A stretch of DNA of 64,000 bases from the NCBI GenBank assembly GCA_000310025.1, contig FN649729.1, positions 2,544,356 to 2,608,355 of the forward strand, written 5' to 3'. This stretch comes from Ectocarpus siliculosus. Its lineage: Eukaryota; Sar; Phaeophyceae; Ectocarpales; Ectocarpaceae. Each line of letters begins with the position of its first letter. Positions within the stretch are counted from its first letter, which is position 1. This document shows positions 2,071 to 62,000 of the stretch, in pieces. Under the pieces are notes generated by a model. The model saw nothing but the letters and a program-made list of their open reading frames with translations, was not told the DNA's origin and did not search any database. The position numbers and the translations under genes are program-made.

Positions 2071-5000
2071 ATGGGCGGTGGCAGCAGCAGCTCGGGGCGT
2101 GCCCGCTTGCCGCTCGGGGACCTCGGCAACGCGGGCTCCAACGCTGTCCGCGGCCGCTCCAAGAACAGAGCAACCTCCCGGAAGTACACCGAGGATGCTC
2201 CCATCAGCAGCAAGCGCAGCTCTTCCACAAGCCACAGGCAGAGGCTACGGTCCACAACGGCAAGCGCCGAGAACTCGGACCCCGTGGGGAGCGCCATCGC
2301 CCTCGCCATGGTGCGTAATGTTTGTCGTTTGCTTCGCCGATGAACGTATGTTGCCTTTAGTGTGTGTTGATTGCCGAGTGCTTCCCGAGCGTCGTGGGGT
2401 TACCCAGCCTCCTTCGTGTGCCATGGACCAACCGCATGAAATTTTCTGTGCTCTTTTGTGCCGAACAACCCTCACCATTGTTCGCGTTCATGCCAGCTGG
2501 ATGGCTTCTCTTGGCCCCTCCAACCCCCCCCGCCCCTCCCCCACCCAACCCAACCCCGACCCCCACAACCATAACCACCACAACCACCCACCCACTACGG
2601 TGACTTTTTTTTGTTTTTTATTTTTTGGATGCCGCTGAGGCTGCTGCAATGTAGCTTCACGGCTCGGTCGACGCTAACTTAACGCGCACGACTACCTAAC
2701 GCACTGCAAATAGTGTCGGTGGCGGTGATTTTCATTGCTTCATTGTGAATATGTTGATGGTATAGGTAAACATTTTGAGCTGCTTTCGGCAACGTAGTGA
2801 GGAAGGATTGGCCATCGGTGATCGCCCCTGTGTGAACAATGGTACGTCTTGCGGAGGACCTGTGATCAATGCTTTATATCAACTACTTCAGCAAGACAAT
2901 ATTCTGCCCCCGTACCCCACCTGGCCACCTAGTAAAAAATCTCCAATTTGTTGGTGCATTTTGACCCCCCCCCTCGCTCCCCCCCCCCCCCCATCCGATG
3001 TTTACCATCGCGGGTGGGTTCCCGTCACTCGGCAGAAATGTAAAAAAACCAATTCACTTCGTGAACTCGGCCACCAGGTTACCGAGTTTTTTTTTACCTC
3101 TGTTTCTTTATTGGCGGTAACCATGAGTGGTGGTCGAGTAGATTATGTTGTGCGGGGTCGAGAACCCTCACTCCCCGCAAAGGCGACAATCGCACCACGT
3201 TGTGTTAAATCGGTCAAGTACCCTCGAGGCAGTTACACAGTGCTTACAAATGTCTCTGGAAGTGAAAGCACCAGAAACAAAATTGAGTCATACGCAGCAG
3301 TCATCCATGCGCAAGGAAGTTAGCGAAGATGCCGAACACCGTTAGCAGGATGCAGCGCACCCTTCATGCGACGCGCCGAATACCTCGCCGCTTCGCGCTT
3401 GGTGATGTGAGCGTCTGGTCCGGTGAGAACCCGGCGTGCTCCGTCCCGGCTCTCTAGGGATGCAAGGGTCAATGGCCTAACGACTACGGCATGCACGACA
3501 ATGAGTACACCCCCACCCCCCCACCCCCTCGCTCACGTCGTTGGATCTTTCCTTGTTGTACGGGAAGGGGTTGGATTTTCTTGCTAGTTTTTTAGCGTGC
3601 TCTCACTCACTCTCCATGGGAGCAACTCCCCCCTTTTCTCACGTTGCCTTTGTTATTTTCAAAAACATCGCCTGACCTTGTGAAGCATCAAGACGCGGTC
3701 ACTTTCGGCCAACATATCCACTGCCGCGAAGGGTTTCCTCAAGAAGTCCAAGGACTGGCCTCAAGCTCTGAAGCTACAAGTAAGGTCAGCCTGCTCAAGA
3801 CCCAAAACCTGCGGGTGCGTCTTTGGTGTGTCACTCTCTCGTGCGCTTGAGGCATCAAATCGAAGGTTGTCCCGGTTGGATCTAGCAAGCTCGTTTCGAA
3901 TGGCCCTTCATCTCCCGAGTTTTTGGAAGCAGCATGCCGCAGCAGTTTAACCCCCCTTTGCACGTGGCGCTCCACACCCCATTGACCACCCTCCCCCCTC
4001 CCCCCATACGCTACAGTTCTACGCTGGGCCGGCTGCGACAAGGGAGGCTACCAAGGGAGATACTACCGCCATAAGCGCCATTCTTCATCTGGTCTTCTAG
4101 TACTCGCCGGTGTTCGCAGCCAACCCGAGCTGGCGCACCTCGGCTTCTCTCGAGGAGTATCCCATCCTCAAGATGGCCTACAGGGTGTATCGGGCCCGCG
4201 GAGGCGTGTCAAGTGCACGCATGTTTGTCGGTGAGGCCATTTGTTGTGCACATTGCGTATGCATAGGTATGATTGATGGACGTGAAGCTGAGAAGCTTGG
4301 GGTGCCTTGATAGCCCCAGTTGTGGAATGGAATGATCCGGCTTGTCACCCGCACGAGCAAAGCATGTATAGCCCACACGAGCATACGAGCAGATACACTC
4401 GACAGTAAGCGTAGCCCTAATGCGGATTCTCTTGCTTCTCGTTTTTTTACCACAGGCAAGCTTGGCAAAAACCTGGCCGCCGCGTGGTCGGAGTGCCACA
4501 AGCATGTCCGGATCACGGTGTGCAAGCTCACCCTCCAGGCGGTCCGGTGCGTCGAGGCCGACGTCAAGGAGGGCGATGCGCCCTCGAAGCTAACGGCACG
4601 CAACCTGGCGAAGGCTTCTCGAAGGTCTCTCCGCAAATTGGTACGTACAACTCTCGTCAAACGCTGGCCCTAAGCTTTCTAGACGGTACTCAACTGCTTG
4701 ACGACATCGCAACAAAACGATGGTGACTAGGGACAAACCCTAACCCAGAGCCCCCCCCATATGTAACAAAATTAAGGGTTGCCCGGGGCCTTCGTGATGG
4801 CACACATATAGGACTGTGTTTCGGTTTGATGCTTGTGAGCGAGCCTGACTCGGATGCAGCGGTGTGGCTGGTAAACGCCACTCTAGTCAAGTCTGACTTG
4901 TCTGTTTACGTCTCTAGGGCGAGGGGATCTGTTTACATGGGTCGCGGTGGTGCCCAACTGTTTGTCCGAGCCATGTTTGGGGCACTTAGATTTCAGCTCT

Positions 5001-28699: not shown

Positions 28700-29215
28700 A
28701 TCGAAAATCGGGGTCCGTTGGGGGGGGGGGGGGGGGACTCCTAATCCTGCATGCCGGAATAAGCCCCGTTCTCACCGGAACAGGCTCTCCCATCACCAAA
28801 CGCGAAACGCCCTGAGGGGTTCGGCGAATCCCATGAAAAATGGGCTGCATCCTGGTAAACGTGTTCGGCATCTAATGGTTACTTTCTTTTCTACGGGTGA
28901 AAACTGCCTATGACTTAAATTTTCTGGGGCTTTCACTTCCAGATACAGTTGTAAGGACTGTGTAACTGCCTGGAGGGTGCTTGGCCAATTTTACACAACG
29001 TGGTGCAATTATTTTACTCGACCCGTACAACAAAATTTATTGGACCCCCAGTCATGGTTTCCGCATAAAAAAACAAAAAGGGGGAAAAAAAAAACGGTAC
29101 CCTGGTTGCCGAGCTCAGGATGTGTTGGGTTTTTTTTTAAACATCGCTGCCAAGGGAGGAAAACCCAACCCGGAGGGCAACCCCGGGGGGGGGGGGGGGA
29201 TGTACTCTTAGTCGT
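28700..29215 (+). repeat. Interspersed repeat copy 2
   Basis: Same family as 2964-3475 (inverted) and 29216-29945. Order of parts: a G homopolymer of about 20, GTTCTCACCGGAACAGGCTC, CATCACCAAACGCGAAACGC, a CTTTCACTTCCAGATACAG segment, CACAACGTGGTGCAATTAT, an A-rich tract, GGTACCCTGGTTGCCGAGCTC and one unit of the GACGAAAACCC-type minisatellite. It is directly followed by copy 3 in the same orientation. It is more diverged and lacks about 30 bp near its start that copy 3 has. Confidence 0.85.
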
Positions 29216-29660
29216 GCATGCCGTACATTGACCTCGCATCCCTACAAAGCCGGGACGGAGCACGCCGGGTTCTCACCGGACCAGGCTCTCACATCACCAA
29301 GCGCGAAGCGCCGTGAGGTATTCGGCGAGTCGCATGAAGGGTGCGCTGCATCCTGCTAAGGGTGTTCAGCATCTTGTGCTTACTTGCTTGCGTACGGATG
29401 ACAGCTGCGTGTGACTTAATTTATTTTCTGGTGCTTTCACTTCCAGAGACAGTTGTAAGCACTGTCTAGCTGCCTCGAGGATGCTTGACCATTTTAACAC
29501 AACGTGGTGCGATCATCTCCCTTGCGTGAAGTGAGGATTCTCCACCCCGCACAACATGATCTACTCGACCACCATTCATTATGGTTACCGCCAATAAAAA
29601 AACAGAGGTAAAAAAAAAAAACGGTATCCTGGTTGCCGAGTTCACGAAGTGGATTGGCTT
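29216..29660 (+). repeat. Interspersed repeat copy 3
   Basis: Contains CCGGGACGGAGCACGCCGGG, CACCAAGCGCGAAGCGCC, CTTTCACTTCCAGAGACAG, CACAACGTGGTGCGATCAT, an A-rich tract and GGTATCCTGGTTGCCGAGTTC in the same order as copies 1 and 2. Its right end has expanded into the minisatellite that follows. No protein-coding potential is shared among the three copies. Confidence 0.85.
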
Positions 29661-29945
29661 GTTTTACAACGTCGTTGCCAATCGACGAAAACCCAATCCC
29701 GATGGCAAACACCGAGTGGGGGGCTTGTTTTACAACGTCGTTGCCAAGCGACGAAAACCCAACCCCGATGGCAAACACCGGGGGGGGGGCGGCATGTTTT
29801 ACAACGTCGTTTCCAAGCGACGAAAACCCAACCCCGATGGCAACCACCGGGGACGAAAGGAAACACCGGGGGGGGCGGCATGTTTGATAATGTCGTTGCC
29901 AAGCGATGAAAACCCAACCCCGATGGAAAACATCGGGGGGGAGGG
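29660..29945 (+). repeat. Minisatellite of about 60 bp grown from the repeat's 3' unit
   Basis: Four to five tandem units of the form TTTACAACGTCGTTGCCAAG, CGACGAAAACCCAACCCCGA, TGGCAAACACCG plus a variable G run. Copies 1 and 2 of the interspersed repeat carry a single such unit, so the array arose here by local expansion. G runs of 8-10 separate the units. Open frames here are repeat artefacts. Confidence 0.9.
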
Positions 29946-30424
29946 GACTCTATTTTCTACTTCTAGTATATGTTTGCGTAAGGGGCACCGTGGATAGAAA
30001 AAACTCTGCAGTAGGGGGGTCAATGACTTGTGTTCGTGAACGAAGCCTATGCTATTTGCTATATAAAACAGACATCGAAAATGCCCTCCCGGGGGGGGGG
30101 GGGGCGGAGGGGGGTGGCCTATGTGTCCGGAATTTTTTTCACGTGAACCCTTGCATCACCCCATCGTGACCCAACCATGACTTGATGATCAACGTCGATG
30201 TACATGTAGCACAATGCCCGCACACCCACCCAGCATTATCCCATTTTCACCAACCCAGCGGCAATGCCAGCAGACCAACCTGTAAAACGTATCCATCCAG
30301 CGCCAACCTACAGTAGCACCTGTCGTGTGGGTTGTGGGTTAGGGGTAGGTAGCGTTAGGGAAGCGCCTGCCAAAGCAGATCATCAGTTGTAAATATATGT
30401 TGTTTGTGAGCATCAGAATTGCAG

Positions 30425-53355: not shown

Positions 53356-56300
53356 AGGTGCGCCCATGGGAATGTCGCCCATGCAAGGGGGGGTGGACCC
53401 CTCGGGGTTCGTCCAACACCAACCCCCGGTGTTTGGACAGCCGCAGTTCTTTCGGTCGCATCAGGGGGGCAGAGGCCCTCAACGTTCACACAGGGGCGAA
53501 GGCAGAGGGGCGAGCCCATATGGCGCCCCGGGACGTTACGGCCGCGGGGGAGGCGGCCGCGGAGGTGGCGGTAGGGGTCCGGGTCAGGGGAAGCCTATGC
53601 CCTTTCGCGATTTTGTTCCACTGTCAGCAACCGGGGCATGCCAAGAAAATCTGTCCCAGCTCATAGGGAAGATAGAAAGGTTCGAGAAGGGTACTCGTGA
53701 TTGAGCTTTGGTGGAAACAACGGTTTCGGAGATATGGGGTTCAGATGATAATCAGGTCGATGAAGACGATGTGATTCCTGTCGCTCTACACAAGGAAATG
53801 AGGCGAGGTAACAGTCCCTTGATACGCGGTGGCCCTTTCGTTTCTAAAAAGGGGTAATCAGGGGCTTGCCCGCTACGGCTTGCGTTTTGGAGGCGGAATC
53901 TTTCGCAAAAAAAACAAACAAGCAGAAGAATCATCACACAAATACTTCCCCCCTTTGGATCTGTCTATCCGAAGCACCGTAGGTAGCAATCAGCTGTCAC
54001 CTGTACACCTCGTTCAATCTTGATGGGGACTTGCTCGGCGGTTTGGAGCGAGGACCTCGTGGAAGAAGTAGTTCGGGCCAGCGTGTTCCATATGGCCATT
54101 AGAAACTCGTGGAGGCGTTTATCACATAACGATTGTTCAATTATACTTTTGAACGATACAGGTCGGCCCAGAAGCAGAGCTATTCTGCTGGAACGAGTGA
54201 GACGGACGGCGAACATACGCACTCGCTCAATGAGCGGGAATGAAACCAGCGAGTACCATTTTTTTAAGCATCCAGCCGACGACCTCAACAGAGGCGTATT
54301 GTAAGCTGAACAGCCTTCGATCATCGCAGGGGTTGCACCCACACGTGGGATGCCGATGATTTTTTCCCAGGTCATGTGTCATGCGCGGTCGAGTTTTTGG
54401 GAACAAGAGATCCTCGCCGCGTGCCCCGGTCGAGCAACAGCAGATGTGGCTGGGTTGGTTGAGAGGAGCGAACGATCACGAGTTTTGTGGATGAGACAGC
54501 CACAGGTGTTTCCCAAGGACCCTCTTACAAAGGAGGAGTTCTCACACCGGTTGAGTTGCGGAATCACGTGGCTACCGAACACCACCCTTTTTTCGTAGAG
54601 TATGCGATCGCCGGTTATGTCCGAACGGGGGTGGTAGTGCCTTGGCGAGAGGTAGCCGATACCGAGATTCACCACAAGCCACGAATGGTAGCGTTGCGGG
54701 GAGTAGAGCCTTTAAAACCTAGTATGACGTTTGATGCACGGTTCCTGAACCTGATGGTGAAGGACTGGACATTCCCCCATGGACGGGGTCAGCAAGATGG
54801 CCCAATGTGCGTGGGAAGGAGCGTTCCAGATGAAGTGTGGCCATAAGGCGGGTTTCCACGCCGTACCGCTCGCGAAGGATTCTTGGCAGTACTTTAGTTT
54901 CCAGCGGAACGGGGAATACTACGTCTTCATGACGTTATGTTTTGGATGGAAAATCTCTGCGTTCATCTGTCACTCACTATCAGAGGCTGTGGCCGGTTAC
55001 TTGTGTCAACCTCCCAGTGTTGACGTGGATAGATGATTATTACTTCACGAACTTCATACCGACCATGTCACTCACTTCAGAGGAGCGATTCAAGGCGGCT
55101 CAGGCAGCGGGGTAGTTGGTGATGAGCGCGTTTCAAAAGGCAAGATATTTGATGTCGATCCCCAAGTGCGAGCTAGATCCCACTACCAGAAGTTTTTTCC
55201 TCTGGGTGCTGATCAGACTCCGTCGCACAGCATTTCGCCATTCCAGCGGAGAAGTTGGGCAAGTTGTAAGAGCTCATCGACGAAGTCATCTCGCAAGGGT
55301 TCATTGCTTTCCCAACGTTAGAAAAGGTAGCGGGGAAATGCACTAGCACATCTGCGGCATGCCCAGCGGCCAGGCTGCGCACGCATCACACGCAAGTAGA
55401 TCGGCTAGTTTCAGCGCCCGGGAGGGCGGACGGAGAATATCGATATGGTTATTGCCCCTAATGGTGGCCTGAGGTTTGAGATGGACAAGTGGTTAGAGGT
55501 CCGTGACAGGGTGAAGGGAGCACCGTGGCATGAGGCCATACACCAGCGACTCATTATGGCAGGCGTTTCCGATGCTTCTTCTACCGGATGGGGAGGACTG
55601 ATCCGATGCCTAGGGGTAGAAGTGTTTCAGACTGCGGGAGATTCCCGGAACACTTAGTCACGGCACACATCAAAGTGCAAGAAGAACACGCTTTGCAGCA
55701 ACTTCTCACGTTATTCTGTGGAGATAGGTCCGAACAAGCGCAGGGTACGACGATCTTCGTAGACGTAGACAATACCGTCCTCTTTCGCGCGATGAAGCGA
55801 GGCAGGGCCAAGGATACAAGGATATTATGATGCACGAAATTATCTCAGACTTGTTTTGGCCCCAAGTACAACGCTAGTTCACGCTCAAGCTACAGTCGGT
55901 GCCTTCAGCAGCGATTGCAGAAGCTGCCGATTTGTTTGGGCAAGAGGCAGACGCGCATACACGATTAGAAGGGGAAAAATTCGAGGAAATCTGCCGATGA
56001 GCGGGACGAACTTTTGACATGGATTGGATGGCGACTCCGGCTTCGGTTCAGTTTAGAGGATCCCCGGGAGTACGAGGCCTCTCCCACTATATTCACGATT
56101 CCATGCAGAAGGATGCCAGGAAATGTACGTCTTAGGACAGGACCTGTGTAAGATCGCAGGATCAGACGATCCATGTTTTAGATTTTGCTTTCCCCCGACT
56201 ACTACGGTAGGAGTAGTCCTGCAACGCATGGCGGAATGTCGAGCGCGAGGAGTGGGACATTTGGTCGAGATAGCAACATGCGTGGGGTGGGACATGACGA

Positions 56301-56720
56301 AGGGATACTTGTTTCCTTCCGTTGGCTAGGAACCCAAGCAGGGAAAGTCCGTAAGAGATTCGAAGGTGGTCACGACACAGTAGTGCATGGAAGCTGCGCT
56401 CCGCATGTATGCTCAGCGAGCAGGGGAGCGGCAAGATTTCTCTTTGACTTCGTTTCGGTCGGGAGGAGCGATTTCATGGGCATTTGCAGGAGATTCTCTC
56501 TTTCATCCATTATGGTGAGGGCCTATTGGAAAAACCGCAGACGGCATGGAGATATATGTGGCTGATGGAGGTAGTGACGCCAGATTCCGAGGGCGAGGGC
56601 AAGGGGTAACAGAGGCACAGTATAGAGAGCTCAACGAGTTTTCTTTGAGTGAGCAAAGCCGACATTTGGCGGCTTTTGGTCGATCACCGATGCTTTGAAT
56701 GATTTATGGAAAACTAGAAG
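52788..56720 (+). mobile_element. Decayed retroelement, DIRS/tyrosine-recombinase-like
   Basis: A fossil element whose parts run in order on the + strand: a gag-like, Gly/Arg-rich region about 53090-53700, a reverse-transcriptase region about 54640-55060, an RNase H-like region about 55440-55650 with DASSTGWGG, and a recombinase-like region about 56110-56340 ending in a KGYLFP-type phrase. The reverse transcriptase shows AGFHAVPLAKDSWQYFSF, FGWKISAF and a IDDYYFTN catalytic-type motif. The part order and the YLFP phrase point to DIRS-type elements, but another reverse-transcribing group is possible. The left end carries a large inverted duplication. It is clearly broken, on the order of ten or more interruptions, so moderately old. 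Exact ends are uncertain. Confidence 0.75.
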
Positions 56721-58439: not shown

Positions 58440-59022
58440 TGCTGCTGGCTACATACGAATGGTCCCGATCTCTGACAGCGACACTGATGTCCAGCTCTAC
58501 TTCGTTATCGCCGCCGAAATAGCTTGTTGAGTTCGTGTTGGATCTCTACAGCTGTAGACTTCAGGCTGGGGACAGAAGATATCACACCCCTTTTATTGCC
58601 CGATTTTCAGAGCTCGACAACTCCACGAGCACAAAGAGCGGAGGTGCCGAGAAGGGCGGGTGTTGGAAACATTTCGGGAACGGATCATGTGATGTAGACT
58701 TTCTCTTCGACGTGGTAGGAGTCGAGGGTTGATTATCTTTCCCTGGGGTGTGATATCTTACGTCGTCTACATACTGTAGGAAGTATCTGCAGCTGTGAGT
58801 GACGAGGCATGCGCGCATCTTGTGCACAAATGTTCTTGATCGAGGAGAGAATCACAACTATCTGAGCGGGAGTGGGTCGAGTGCTGCCGTGCAACACGAG
58901 CCTGCAAAATGTCCAATCGTTTTCATTTTTTTCACAAGGGTTTCTCCCTCGTTTTCGTTCCTCCCTCCCTCCCTCCCTCCTGCCCTCACGCTCGCTGTTT
59001 GCACGGTGCCTCTACACTACAG

Positions 59023-62000
59023 GCTCAAGACAGAGGGCGCCCCCCCGGCGGGAGTCGTCGTCTGCGACAACTTGATCGGCGGAGAGAGCACCCCCCCGCT
59101 TTCCGGAACCTACCTGGATGTAGTGTCCCCATCAGATGGCACCGTCCTCGGAAGGTGCGTGTGTCGGTTTGGGTGCTTGTATTTTTCCAGGCACAGCTGC
59201 GAATGGACCGCGGCAGTTATCGCCCGCGCTTGAGAACCTGGGAGCTAAGGTTGCCCCATAGAGAGGTCTCGACAAAAAAGAAAGAGGTTCTTGAGTGCGG
59301 GCCGTATAACTCTTCATGACTGACTGACTCACTATAACCACGTTAGAGCGCGGGCAAAAAGAAAAAGCGGACGAGCGTTTCGATCCGCGGGCTCCCCTGG
59401 ACGGGGTCTACCAGTTCTCTCGCGTGAAAAAATGCTCTTACTGGGAGGAGAAGAAACGACACCGCTGTTGAGCACGCCTCCTGCGCTGTTTTCCGTGCAG
59501 TTGGCCGCTCTCCGTCCGACTATTCTTCACTCTCCACACGGCTCTCTCCATCATAGCTCAGGGCGCTCCGGGTGTGATCATTCGACAGCGCTCCCACCGG
59601 CTGACCAATGAAAAGACGTCAGCCTTTGCAGTGCGAAAAACGTTGGATTCCTTTTGAAAATCCTCTGTGTAGGGTGTTCCATTGTTCTAGGCCAGAGACA
59701 AAGACAACATCTCACGGAGGTGAGGAGGGATATTGCTCCGCTGAGGGTGATAACTTCACGTGGTGGTGTTGCTGCCCCCCCCCCCCCCCCCCCGGGAACA
59801 AATTTCTTTGAACCAAATCCCCCTGTCCGGGCCAAAAGAGGGCCAGGGCCCCACCGCCCCTGGGGAAGAAGCCCTCCTGGGGGGGAGCGGCCTGACCGCC
59901 AAAAACCCCCCGGCCCTCATGTTCCCGTTCCCCTCCCCCCCAAAAAAGCCTGCCCACCAACTGGTGAAACCGGGAAAAAAAAACAAAAACTACCTACTGT
60001 AAGAAGATCCTCCGGGTCTGAAAAGAAGAAAAAGTGGCGGCCCCTTTGGGGGAAAGCTGATGTTTGGGGGGGAAAGGAAAAAGGAAAGTTTACCTAAGTT
60101 TTCCAGTGAAACAAGGTGTGGGGGTGGACCCCGGTGGGTATTTTATGTCCCCCTCCAAACCGAATAAACTCCCCGGGGGTAAAAAATAAAGGTTTTTATG
60201 AGAAAAACCTAACCCCCGAGACCCCCGGAAAGGGGAAAAAGAAGATTCCAAAAAACTTCCGGGNNNNNNNNNNNNNNNNNNNNNNNNNNNNNNNNNNNNN
60301 NNNNNNNNNNNNNNNNNNNNNNNNNNNNNNNNNNNNNNNNNNNNNNNNNNNNNNNNNNNNNNNACCCCGTTAGGGGGGGGGCAAAAAAAAAAAGGGGACG
60401 GGGGTTTGGATCCGGGGGTTCCCCTGGAGGGGGTTTCCCAGTTTTTTCGGGGGAAAAAATGTTTTTACTGGGGGGGGAAGAAACGACCCCGCTGTGGGGC
60501 CCCCCTCCTGCGCTTTTTTCCGGGCAGTTGGCCGTTTTCCTTCCGATTTTTTTTCCCTTTCCCCCGGGCTTTTTCCATCATAGCTCAGGGCGCTCCGGGG
60601 GGGATCTTTGGACAGGGCTCCCCCCGGGTGACCAATGAAAAGACGTCACCCTTTGCAGTGGGAAAAACGTTGGATTCCTTTTGAAAATCCTTTGTGTAGG
60701 GGGTTCCATTTTTTTAGGCCAGAGAAAAAGACAACTTTTCCCGGGGGGGGGGGGGGATTTTGTTCCGCTGGGGGTGATAACTTCCCGGGGGGGGGTTGCT
60801 GCCCCCCCCCCCCCCTCCCGGCGACGAAATTCGTTTGACCAGAGTCGCCATGTCGGGGCAGAAGGAGGTCGAGGTCGCAGCGGCCCGTGCGGAGGAGGCC
60901 TTCGTGGGGTGGAGCGGCATGACGGCCAAGAGCCGCGCGGCCATCATGTTCCGGTTCCACTCCCTCCTAGAGATGCATGCCGACGAGCTGGTGAGACGGG
61001 GAGAAAGAACGAGAGACTACGTACTGTAGGAGGATCGTCGGGGTCTGAGAGGAGGAGAAGGTGGCGGCACGTTTGGGGGAAGGCTGATGTTGGGGGGGGA
61101 AGGGAAGAGGGAAGGTTGACGTAGGTTATCGAGTGAAACAGGGTGTGGTGGTGGACCCGGGTGGCTATGTAGTGTCACGCTCAGACCGGAATAAGCTCCC
61201 AGGGGGTAAAACATAAGGCTTTTGATGAGAGAAACGTAACGCCGGAGACACCGGGAAGGGTGATAGAGAGGATGCAAGAGAGCTTCGGGGGGGAGGTGGG
61301 CCGCAAAAATATGGTGCGTAATGGCACCGCCTCGTTGGGTGGTGTGTGTCGTGTGTGTCTCGTGTGCGTCTCTCCCGCGAAAATCGCCAGGCGGACCTTG
61401 TCGTGGCGGAGAACGGCAAGAACAAGGCGGAGGCGCTGGCGTCTGTGGCCAAGGGGAACGAGACTGTCGAGTGGGCGTGCTCCATGCCTCAGCTCATGCA
61501 GGCAAGAGAGAGAGCGATACGCATGTATGCATGGAACAGATTTGTAAAAACTGTTGGTGCGGCAGTAGTAGGGATTTGTGCTTCGCTGATTGGATACCCG
61601 CGGGACATCCCAACGGTGAGGATTAACGGCAATGTATATGCGTCCGGTTTCTACTGACGTTTACTGTGGGCCAAGATGTCTTCACCGAAAGATCGAAAGA
61701 GGCCTACGACCATGCGTCTTTCTTCCGAAAACAGGACTCGTGATATGCACAGAGCACGCCTCCAGTTTATTTTAGCGGGGGCAGGCGCGCCGTCTGCGTA
61801 TATTCTCCCCCCCTAAACCAAGACAAGATTTGCGTAGGGTTCTGCGTACCTGCACGTGGCAAGACAATTCAGGAAGGCGCACGCGCTACACACACATCCA
61901 TACCCTCATCACTTAGCACAGACAGATGTGTGCTTGTGTTGTGCTGCCGCTTCTCGTAAGTCCTGGTGCTGGGTTTGCTGGTGTTTCTTTTGTCAGGTCG

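Follow-up and report, generated by a model that had tools for sequence, protein, structure and literature searches.

A stretch of Ectocarpus siliculosus DNA almost certainly printed twice around a scaffold gap, with a poly-C tract as its hinge

The window analysed here (64,000 nucleotides of Ectocarpus siliculosus, contig FN649729.1 of assembly GCA_000310025.1) holds a gap of 100 N's with a similar block on either side, and the question raised by this locus is whether the alga carries a duplication there or whether a single locus has been assembled twice. Our analysis indicates that a single piece of algal DNA has almost certainly been printed twice here, in the form of the two blocks, and that neither the duplication nor the gap nor the additional exon that comes with it is real.

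The two blocks and the rule behind their differences

The blocks at 59337-60263 and 60364-61290 are 927 bp each and lie at an offset of 1,027, with 741 of the 927 positions identical, 186 substitutions and 0 indels. Such a pairing without indels had been claimed in a preliminary description of this DNA and is borne out both by the positional comparison and by blastn, in which the flanks of the gap give a single ungapped alignment of 927 bp (79.9% identity, E=0.0). The match extends all the way to the contig ends, as it would if these overlapped: position 60364, where the right contig starts, pairs with 59337, and position 60263, where the left contig stops, pairs with 61290. Past the blocks this offset leads into N's, and the outer bins mismatch at 31 to 50 of 50 positions.

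The differences between the blocks hinge on a poly-C tract that both of them contain. On the left side of the tract the left block was taken as true, on its right side the right block, and errors were counted reading away from the tract; this assignment presupposes that the duplication is an artefact, but the rule described here could still have failed under it. At the left contig end, 335 of 469 positions have a differing preceding base and are informative, and all 114 errors equal the preceding base, with 0 errors at the other 134 positions. The right contig end has 438 positions (323 informative) and 70 errors, 69 of which equal the preceding base and one the next base instead, again with 0 errors at the other 115. 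Two more differences, bringing the sum to 186, sit in the tract of the left copy, and both equal the preceding base. At all other offsets from -8 to +8 the agreement is 0.16 to 0.39, except at +1 in the right block, where it is 0.79 (55/70) because of X-Y-X contexts. The differences between the copies are sequencing errors and not allelic variants, since 183 of the 184 outside the tract are directed by the preceding-base rule.

The errors set in as a step at the poly-C tract, and their frequency is level beyond it: at informative positions, whether a base is wrong shows no correlation with how far it lies from the tract (Spearman rho -0.04, p 0.45 on the left; rho 0.07, p 0.21 on the right). 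The last error of the right block is at index 430 (59767 / 60794), the first of the left block at index 452 (59789 / 60816) and the 14-C run at indices 438-451, and the two error zones abut at this run with no overlap. The substitutions toward neighbouring bases reported earlier can accordingly be sharpened to the preceding base, but the rise toward the gap from both sides that was reported with them is not seen, and the clean limits proposed at about 59760 and 60840 were slightly conservative. Which of the two registers is called depends on the bases: across eight contig ends, G after A was called A in 127 of 177 cases and A after G was called G in 24 of 203. In dye-terminator chemistry, G peaks that follow A are weak.

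Read in this way, the stretch around the gap consists of the following parts, where a ghost is the blurred copy of a cleanly printed sequence and the same-neighbour fraction is given as a measure of blurring.

59337-59788, plus strand: clean part of the left copy (left contig), through the first 14 C's of the tract; under the rule no error is charged here, and 69 of 70 errors in the opposite block are explained by it; 59337-59770 has a same-neighbour fraction of 0.266
59775-59793, no strand: hinge in the left copy, printed as C19
59789-60263, plus strand: tail of the left contig, blurred by stutter and a ghost of 60816-61290; all 114 wrong bases past the tract repeat the true base before them, as do both tract errors, with 0 errors at 134 same-base positions; same-neighbour fraction 0.522
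60264-60363, no strand: scaffold gap of 100 N, the only N run in the window and a negative gap, the true ends overlapping by 927 bp
60364-60801, minus strand: blurred (stuttered) start of the right contig, a minus-strand read and ghost of 59337-59774; in the minus-strand direction the wrong bases repeat the true base before them in 69 of 70 cases, with 0 errors at 115 same-base positions; same-neighbour fraction 0.542
60802-60819, no strand: hinge in the right copy, printed as C14 T C3; the T reads C in the left copy, as the rule predicts
60802-61290, plus strand: C14 tract plus the clean remainder of the right copy, in the right contig; within it 60820-61290 occurs once in the genome, and 60816-61290 has a same-neighbour fraction of 0.289

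The genome was searched for extra copies in one assembly of 189.5 Mb and 492 contigs. In this genome EsV_1_7_cys has at least 150 matches (scored out of 880 candidates), whereas it gave a signal in 0 of 14 control genomes, as would suit a brown alga such as Ectocarpus. The clean right part (60820-61290) has one match, itself, and the clean left part (59337-59760) has full-length matches, among those listed, only to itself and to its ghost at 84%. The list for the left part is a lower bound, with 40 of 181 candidates scored, and it holds at least 43 other pieces, each shorter than 65 bases and all in query bases 237-305, which points to a small dispersed element within the clean left part. This corresponds to a stretch of about 50 bases at ~59573-59641, with at least 43 matches elsewhere in the genome at 81-93%.

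The MMSDH gene and its extra exon

The duplication falls within a gene for MMSDH, a member of the aldehyde dehydrogenase family, and affects the following features.

59155-60842, plus strand: MMSDH intron as printed, 1,688 bp, or 661 bp if the locus is printed once; GT at 59155-59156 and AG at 60841-60842
60843-60990, plus strand: true MMSDH exon, within the frame 60781-61026
59816-59963, plus strand: ghost exon, a stuttered copy of 60843-60990; the acceptor AG reads CA, the donor GT survives and 21 of 49 residues are common to both

The frame 60781-61026 matches Pfam Aldedh with E=1.3e-9. When the exon is joined with its neighbours into a fragment of 131 residues, the best NCBIfam match is the MMSDH model TIGR01722 (E=3.7e-26, 91.8 bits compared to a cut-off of 448.5 for the full-length protein), and the joined exons match the solved MMSDH structure 1t90 (E=9.2e-22). 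The donor GT at 59155 and the acceptor AG at 60841-60842 preserve the reading frame. NCBIfam models gave no match to the frame holding the ghost exon. Both statements made earlier about this gene, that the intron is really about 660 bp and not 1.7 kb and that the ghost exon is an artefact, agree with the length obtained from a single copy and with the loss of the acceptor, and a metabolic gene model thereby loses a duplication, a gap and an exon that are all false. Elsewhere in the window, three frames (54761-55033, 55409-55654 and 56182-56562) had no match in Pfam.

Other gaps and the origin of the duplication

Six complete 100-N gaps were compared, only 100-N runs being counted as assembly gaps: the one in the window, one among loci taken at round coordinates (L022) and four in loci fetched for poly-C (L033, L034, L040 and L041). 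A C or G tract of at least 14 lies within 500 bp of all six, four of the six having been chosen for poly-C and L033 and L034 because of a close tract pair. A ghost overlap was found at five of the six gaps, on both sides in four and on one side in L040; at L041 the contigs stop at the tract and nothing is repeated. The overlay seen in the window recurs at the four further gaps L022, L033, L034 and L040. The share of ghost bases explained by the true base and the two preceding ones, {i, i-1, i-2}, with the register fitted for each end, was taken as the three-register coverage and is given below as left end / right end.

Window: 1.000 / 1.000
L033: 1.000 / 0.982
L034: 0.991 / 0.969 (right end 64 bases only)
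L022: 0.993 / 0.939

Wrong registers at these four gaps gave null means of 0.566-0.607 and maxima of 0.651-0.712, and L040 reached 0.990 against a median of 0.563.

We consider it highly probable that a single locus, Sanger slippage on the poly-C tract and blurred, unmerged contig ends scaffolded with 100 N together account for the duplication. In this scheme a single-copy locus would have been shotgun sequenced by the Sanger method, the polymerase slipping on the run of about 14 C's and yielding products that differ by one C. Past the tract each trace would then hold the same sequence twice, one base apart, and a base caller that keeps one base per peak position would leave substitutions copying the preceding base, without indels. 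Forward reads would be clean to the left of the tract and blurred to the right of it, and reverse reads the opposite. As the reads would be blurred past the C run, the two contig ends would never have been joined; both contigs would retain their blurred tails, the overlap of 927 bp at 80% identity would stay unmerged and the contigs would be set side by side with 100 N between them. The one-base-offset overlay that starts at a homopolymer in both read directions is, as judged from the assembled bases, probably the signature of polymerase slippage in Sanger reads. The Ectocarpus v1 reference is described as built from Sanger data in the part of PMC7386250 that deals with it, and we infer for this locus Sanger chemistry, contig tails made of few reads and mate-pair scaffolding with a default gap length. 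The fit is weaker in a few places: one of the 70 right-block errors is the next base, 55 of the 70 equal the next base as well, and the right end of L022 follows the overlay less well than the others. The proposal in the preliminary description of two unmerged, overlapping contig ends thus stands as the best reading, given the single-copy clean halves, the two-register overlay and its recurrence at other 100-N gaps, but it left out the poly-C tract as the hinge, and the likely cause is homopolymer slippage and not general read-end decay.

The same overlay would also arise from reading a mixture of two alleles, or of two template populations, whose tracts are one C apart in length. A length difference of one base yields a two-register pattern, and two registers are all that the window needs (1.000 and 0.998). 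This explanation is nevertheless very improbable: shotgun clones are single molecules, the pattern recurs at C or G tracts on several contigs, and at L022, L033 and L034 two registers cover just 0.784-0.982, so that a third is needed, as it is at L040, where two cover 0.929. The tracts at L022, L033 and L034 are printed 20-47 long, and a third register there is what stronger slippage on longer runs would give.

A genuine duplication in tandem, some 1 kb long, with copies that have diverged to 80% identity and a gap between them, is suggested by the position of the blocks, which are similar and stand in tandem on one scaffold and within one intron and exon region, but we regard it as extremely unlikely. 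The indels and undirected substitutions expected of a real duplication at this divergence are absent: there is no indel in 927 bp at 20% difference, and the errors split at the tract into two one-sided zones that obey the preceding-base rule. The similarity spans exactly from contig end to contig end, and the copied exon has no acceptor and shares fewer than half of its residues with the original. A real dispersed repeat of the same genome has 2-9 gap openings per pair (21 pairs among seven copies, leaving aside the copy at 28.7 kb of the window). A resolution that simply fades as long Sanger reads near their ends could explain errors that copy neighbouring bases and sit at contig ends, but is extremely unlikely as well: it would hardly produce the step at the tract in both directions, the lack of a distance trend and of indels, and the one-sided choice of the preceding base, and among the few contig ends examined we saw none that was free of homopolymers and had the same overlay.

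Slippage at a single locus with unmerged contig ends gives an assembly artefact of a known kind. The locus, which occurs once in the genome but has been printed as two copies separated by a gap, fits the class of homotype false duplications. As outlined in portions of PMC9516828, this class likewise consists of one sequence printed twice on one scaffold, with a gap between the copies, because accumulated sequencing errors block their collapse, but there it is defined by read depth and k-mers, whereas here the error process was read base by base in the assembled sequence alone and has a homopolymer as its hinge. The stutter at homopolymers described in sections of PMC10643650 is similar in that extra peaks stand beside the true peak, are ascribed to polymerase slippage and are worse at homopolymers; in contrast to those peaks, which are less than one-third of the main peak, the stutter here, seen in assembled sequence only, has taken over 114 of 469 and 70 of 438 called bases. 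Among the listed titles and abstract openings of open-access papers, we found no account of this artefact in a brown alga.

Poly-C tracts, gaps and probable stutter without a gap

A search for runs of 18 C's matched 9,226 forward and 9,030 reverse positions, overlapping positions being counted. The rows listed, all on a single contig, represent 23 separate tracts, of which 12 in 10 loci were taken, and in nine of the ten loci an N run lies within about 400 bp of the tract (the exception is L037), although some of the long N runs may not be assembly gaps. In a separate sample, made up of the window and 24 loci of ten kb each taken at round coordinates, 5,022 of 254,181 non-N bases (2.0%) lie within 500 bp of an N run. 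This was the case for five of six C or G runs of at least 18, although three of the five are at one gap (L022) and one is in the window, for one of four runs of 16-17 and for 5 of 13 runs of 14-15 (two at L022 and two in the window), compared to none of five A or T runs of 14-15. Among shorter runs there was no contrast between C/G and A/T (7/32 and 8/33 for lengths of 9-11; 1/7 and 1/6 for lengths of 12-13).

We lean towards the view that slippage on poly-C and poly-G is a main maker of gaps in this reference. Many 100-N gaps would then be negative, with mirror-image ghosts hinged on C or G, and a silent form without a gap would create false exons, false introns and inflated repeat divergence; both could be flagged in one pass from the bases themselves by an equal-neighbour fraction of about 0.5-0.75 compared to 0.27. 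A 2024 paper (PMC11541908) counts 11,588 gaps in the V2 reference of Ectocarpus, with a contig N50 of 33 kb, and ascribes the trouble mainly to highly repetitive regions; homopolymer slippage would add a second cause beside repeats. At two loci where a long N run follows a poly-C tract (L036 and L039), the same-neighbour fraction of the bases in between is raised, to 0.47-0.59 and 0.49-0.70 respectively, and stuttered tails may end contigs at larger gaps as well.

The silent form appears to be present in the window at about 28737-29184, where no gap is found. This stretch lies between a G17 run (28720-28736) and a G15 run (29185-29199), so any read would need to pass through a G run before arriving at its middle, whichever side it came from. 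The same-neighbour fraction of the stretch rises to 0.51 in a 200-base window, compared to a mean of 0.268. The stretch is one of the copies of a dispersed repeat some 450 bp long, which has at least 43 matches, this copy included. Compared to seven other copies it has 63-80 mismatches, whereas those seven differ among themselves by 22-46, and its mismatches equal the preceding base of the other copy in 28-39 cases, the converse holding in 5-13. Judging by this excess, stutter probably makes up part of the apparent divergence, and another part is real. Two of the other copies (L047 and L048) lean likewise when compared to the remaining five (14-24 versus 2-7) and look partly stuttered, and a third (L044) leans in some comparisons (17 versus 5 with the 29.2-kb copy). 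Of the two forms, the silent one is of more consequence than the one at gaps because it is unmarked and its substitutions mimic evolutionary divergence.

Several minor features of the window were also noted. The repeat of about 450 bp occurs there as a tandem pair (28755-29180 and ~29256-29708), with at least 43 matches genome-wide. Weaker rises of the same-neighbour fraction (0.41-0.44) are found near homopolymer runs at ~2421-2640, 2901-3120 and 29601-29960. A short dispersed element at ~58566-58770 has at least 49 matches besides itself on both strands genome-wide, which suggests an inverted repeat or a small transposon.
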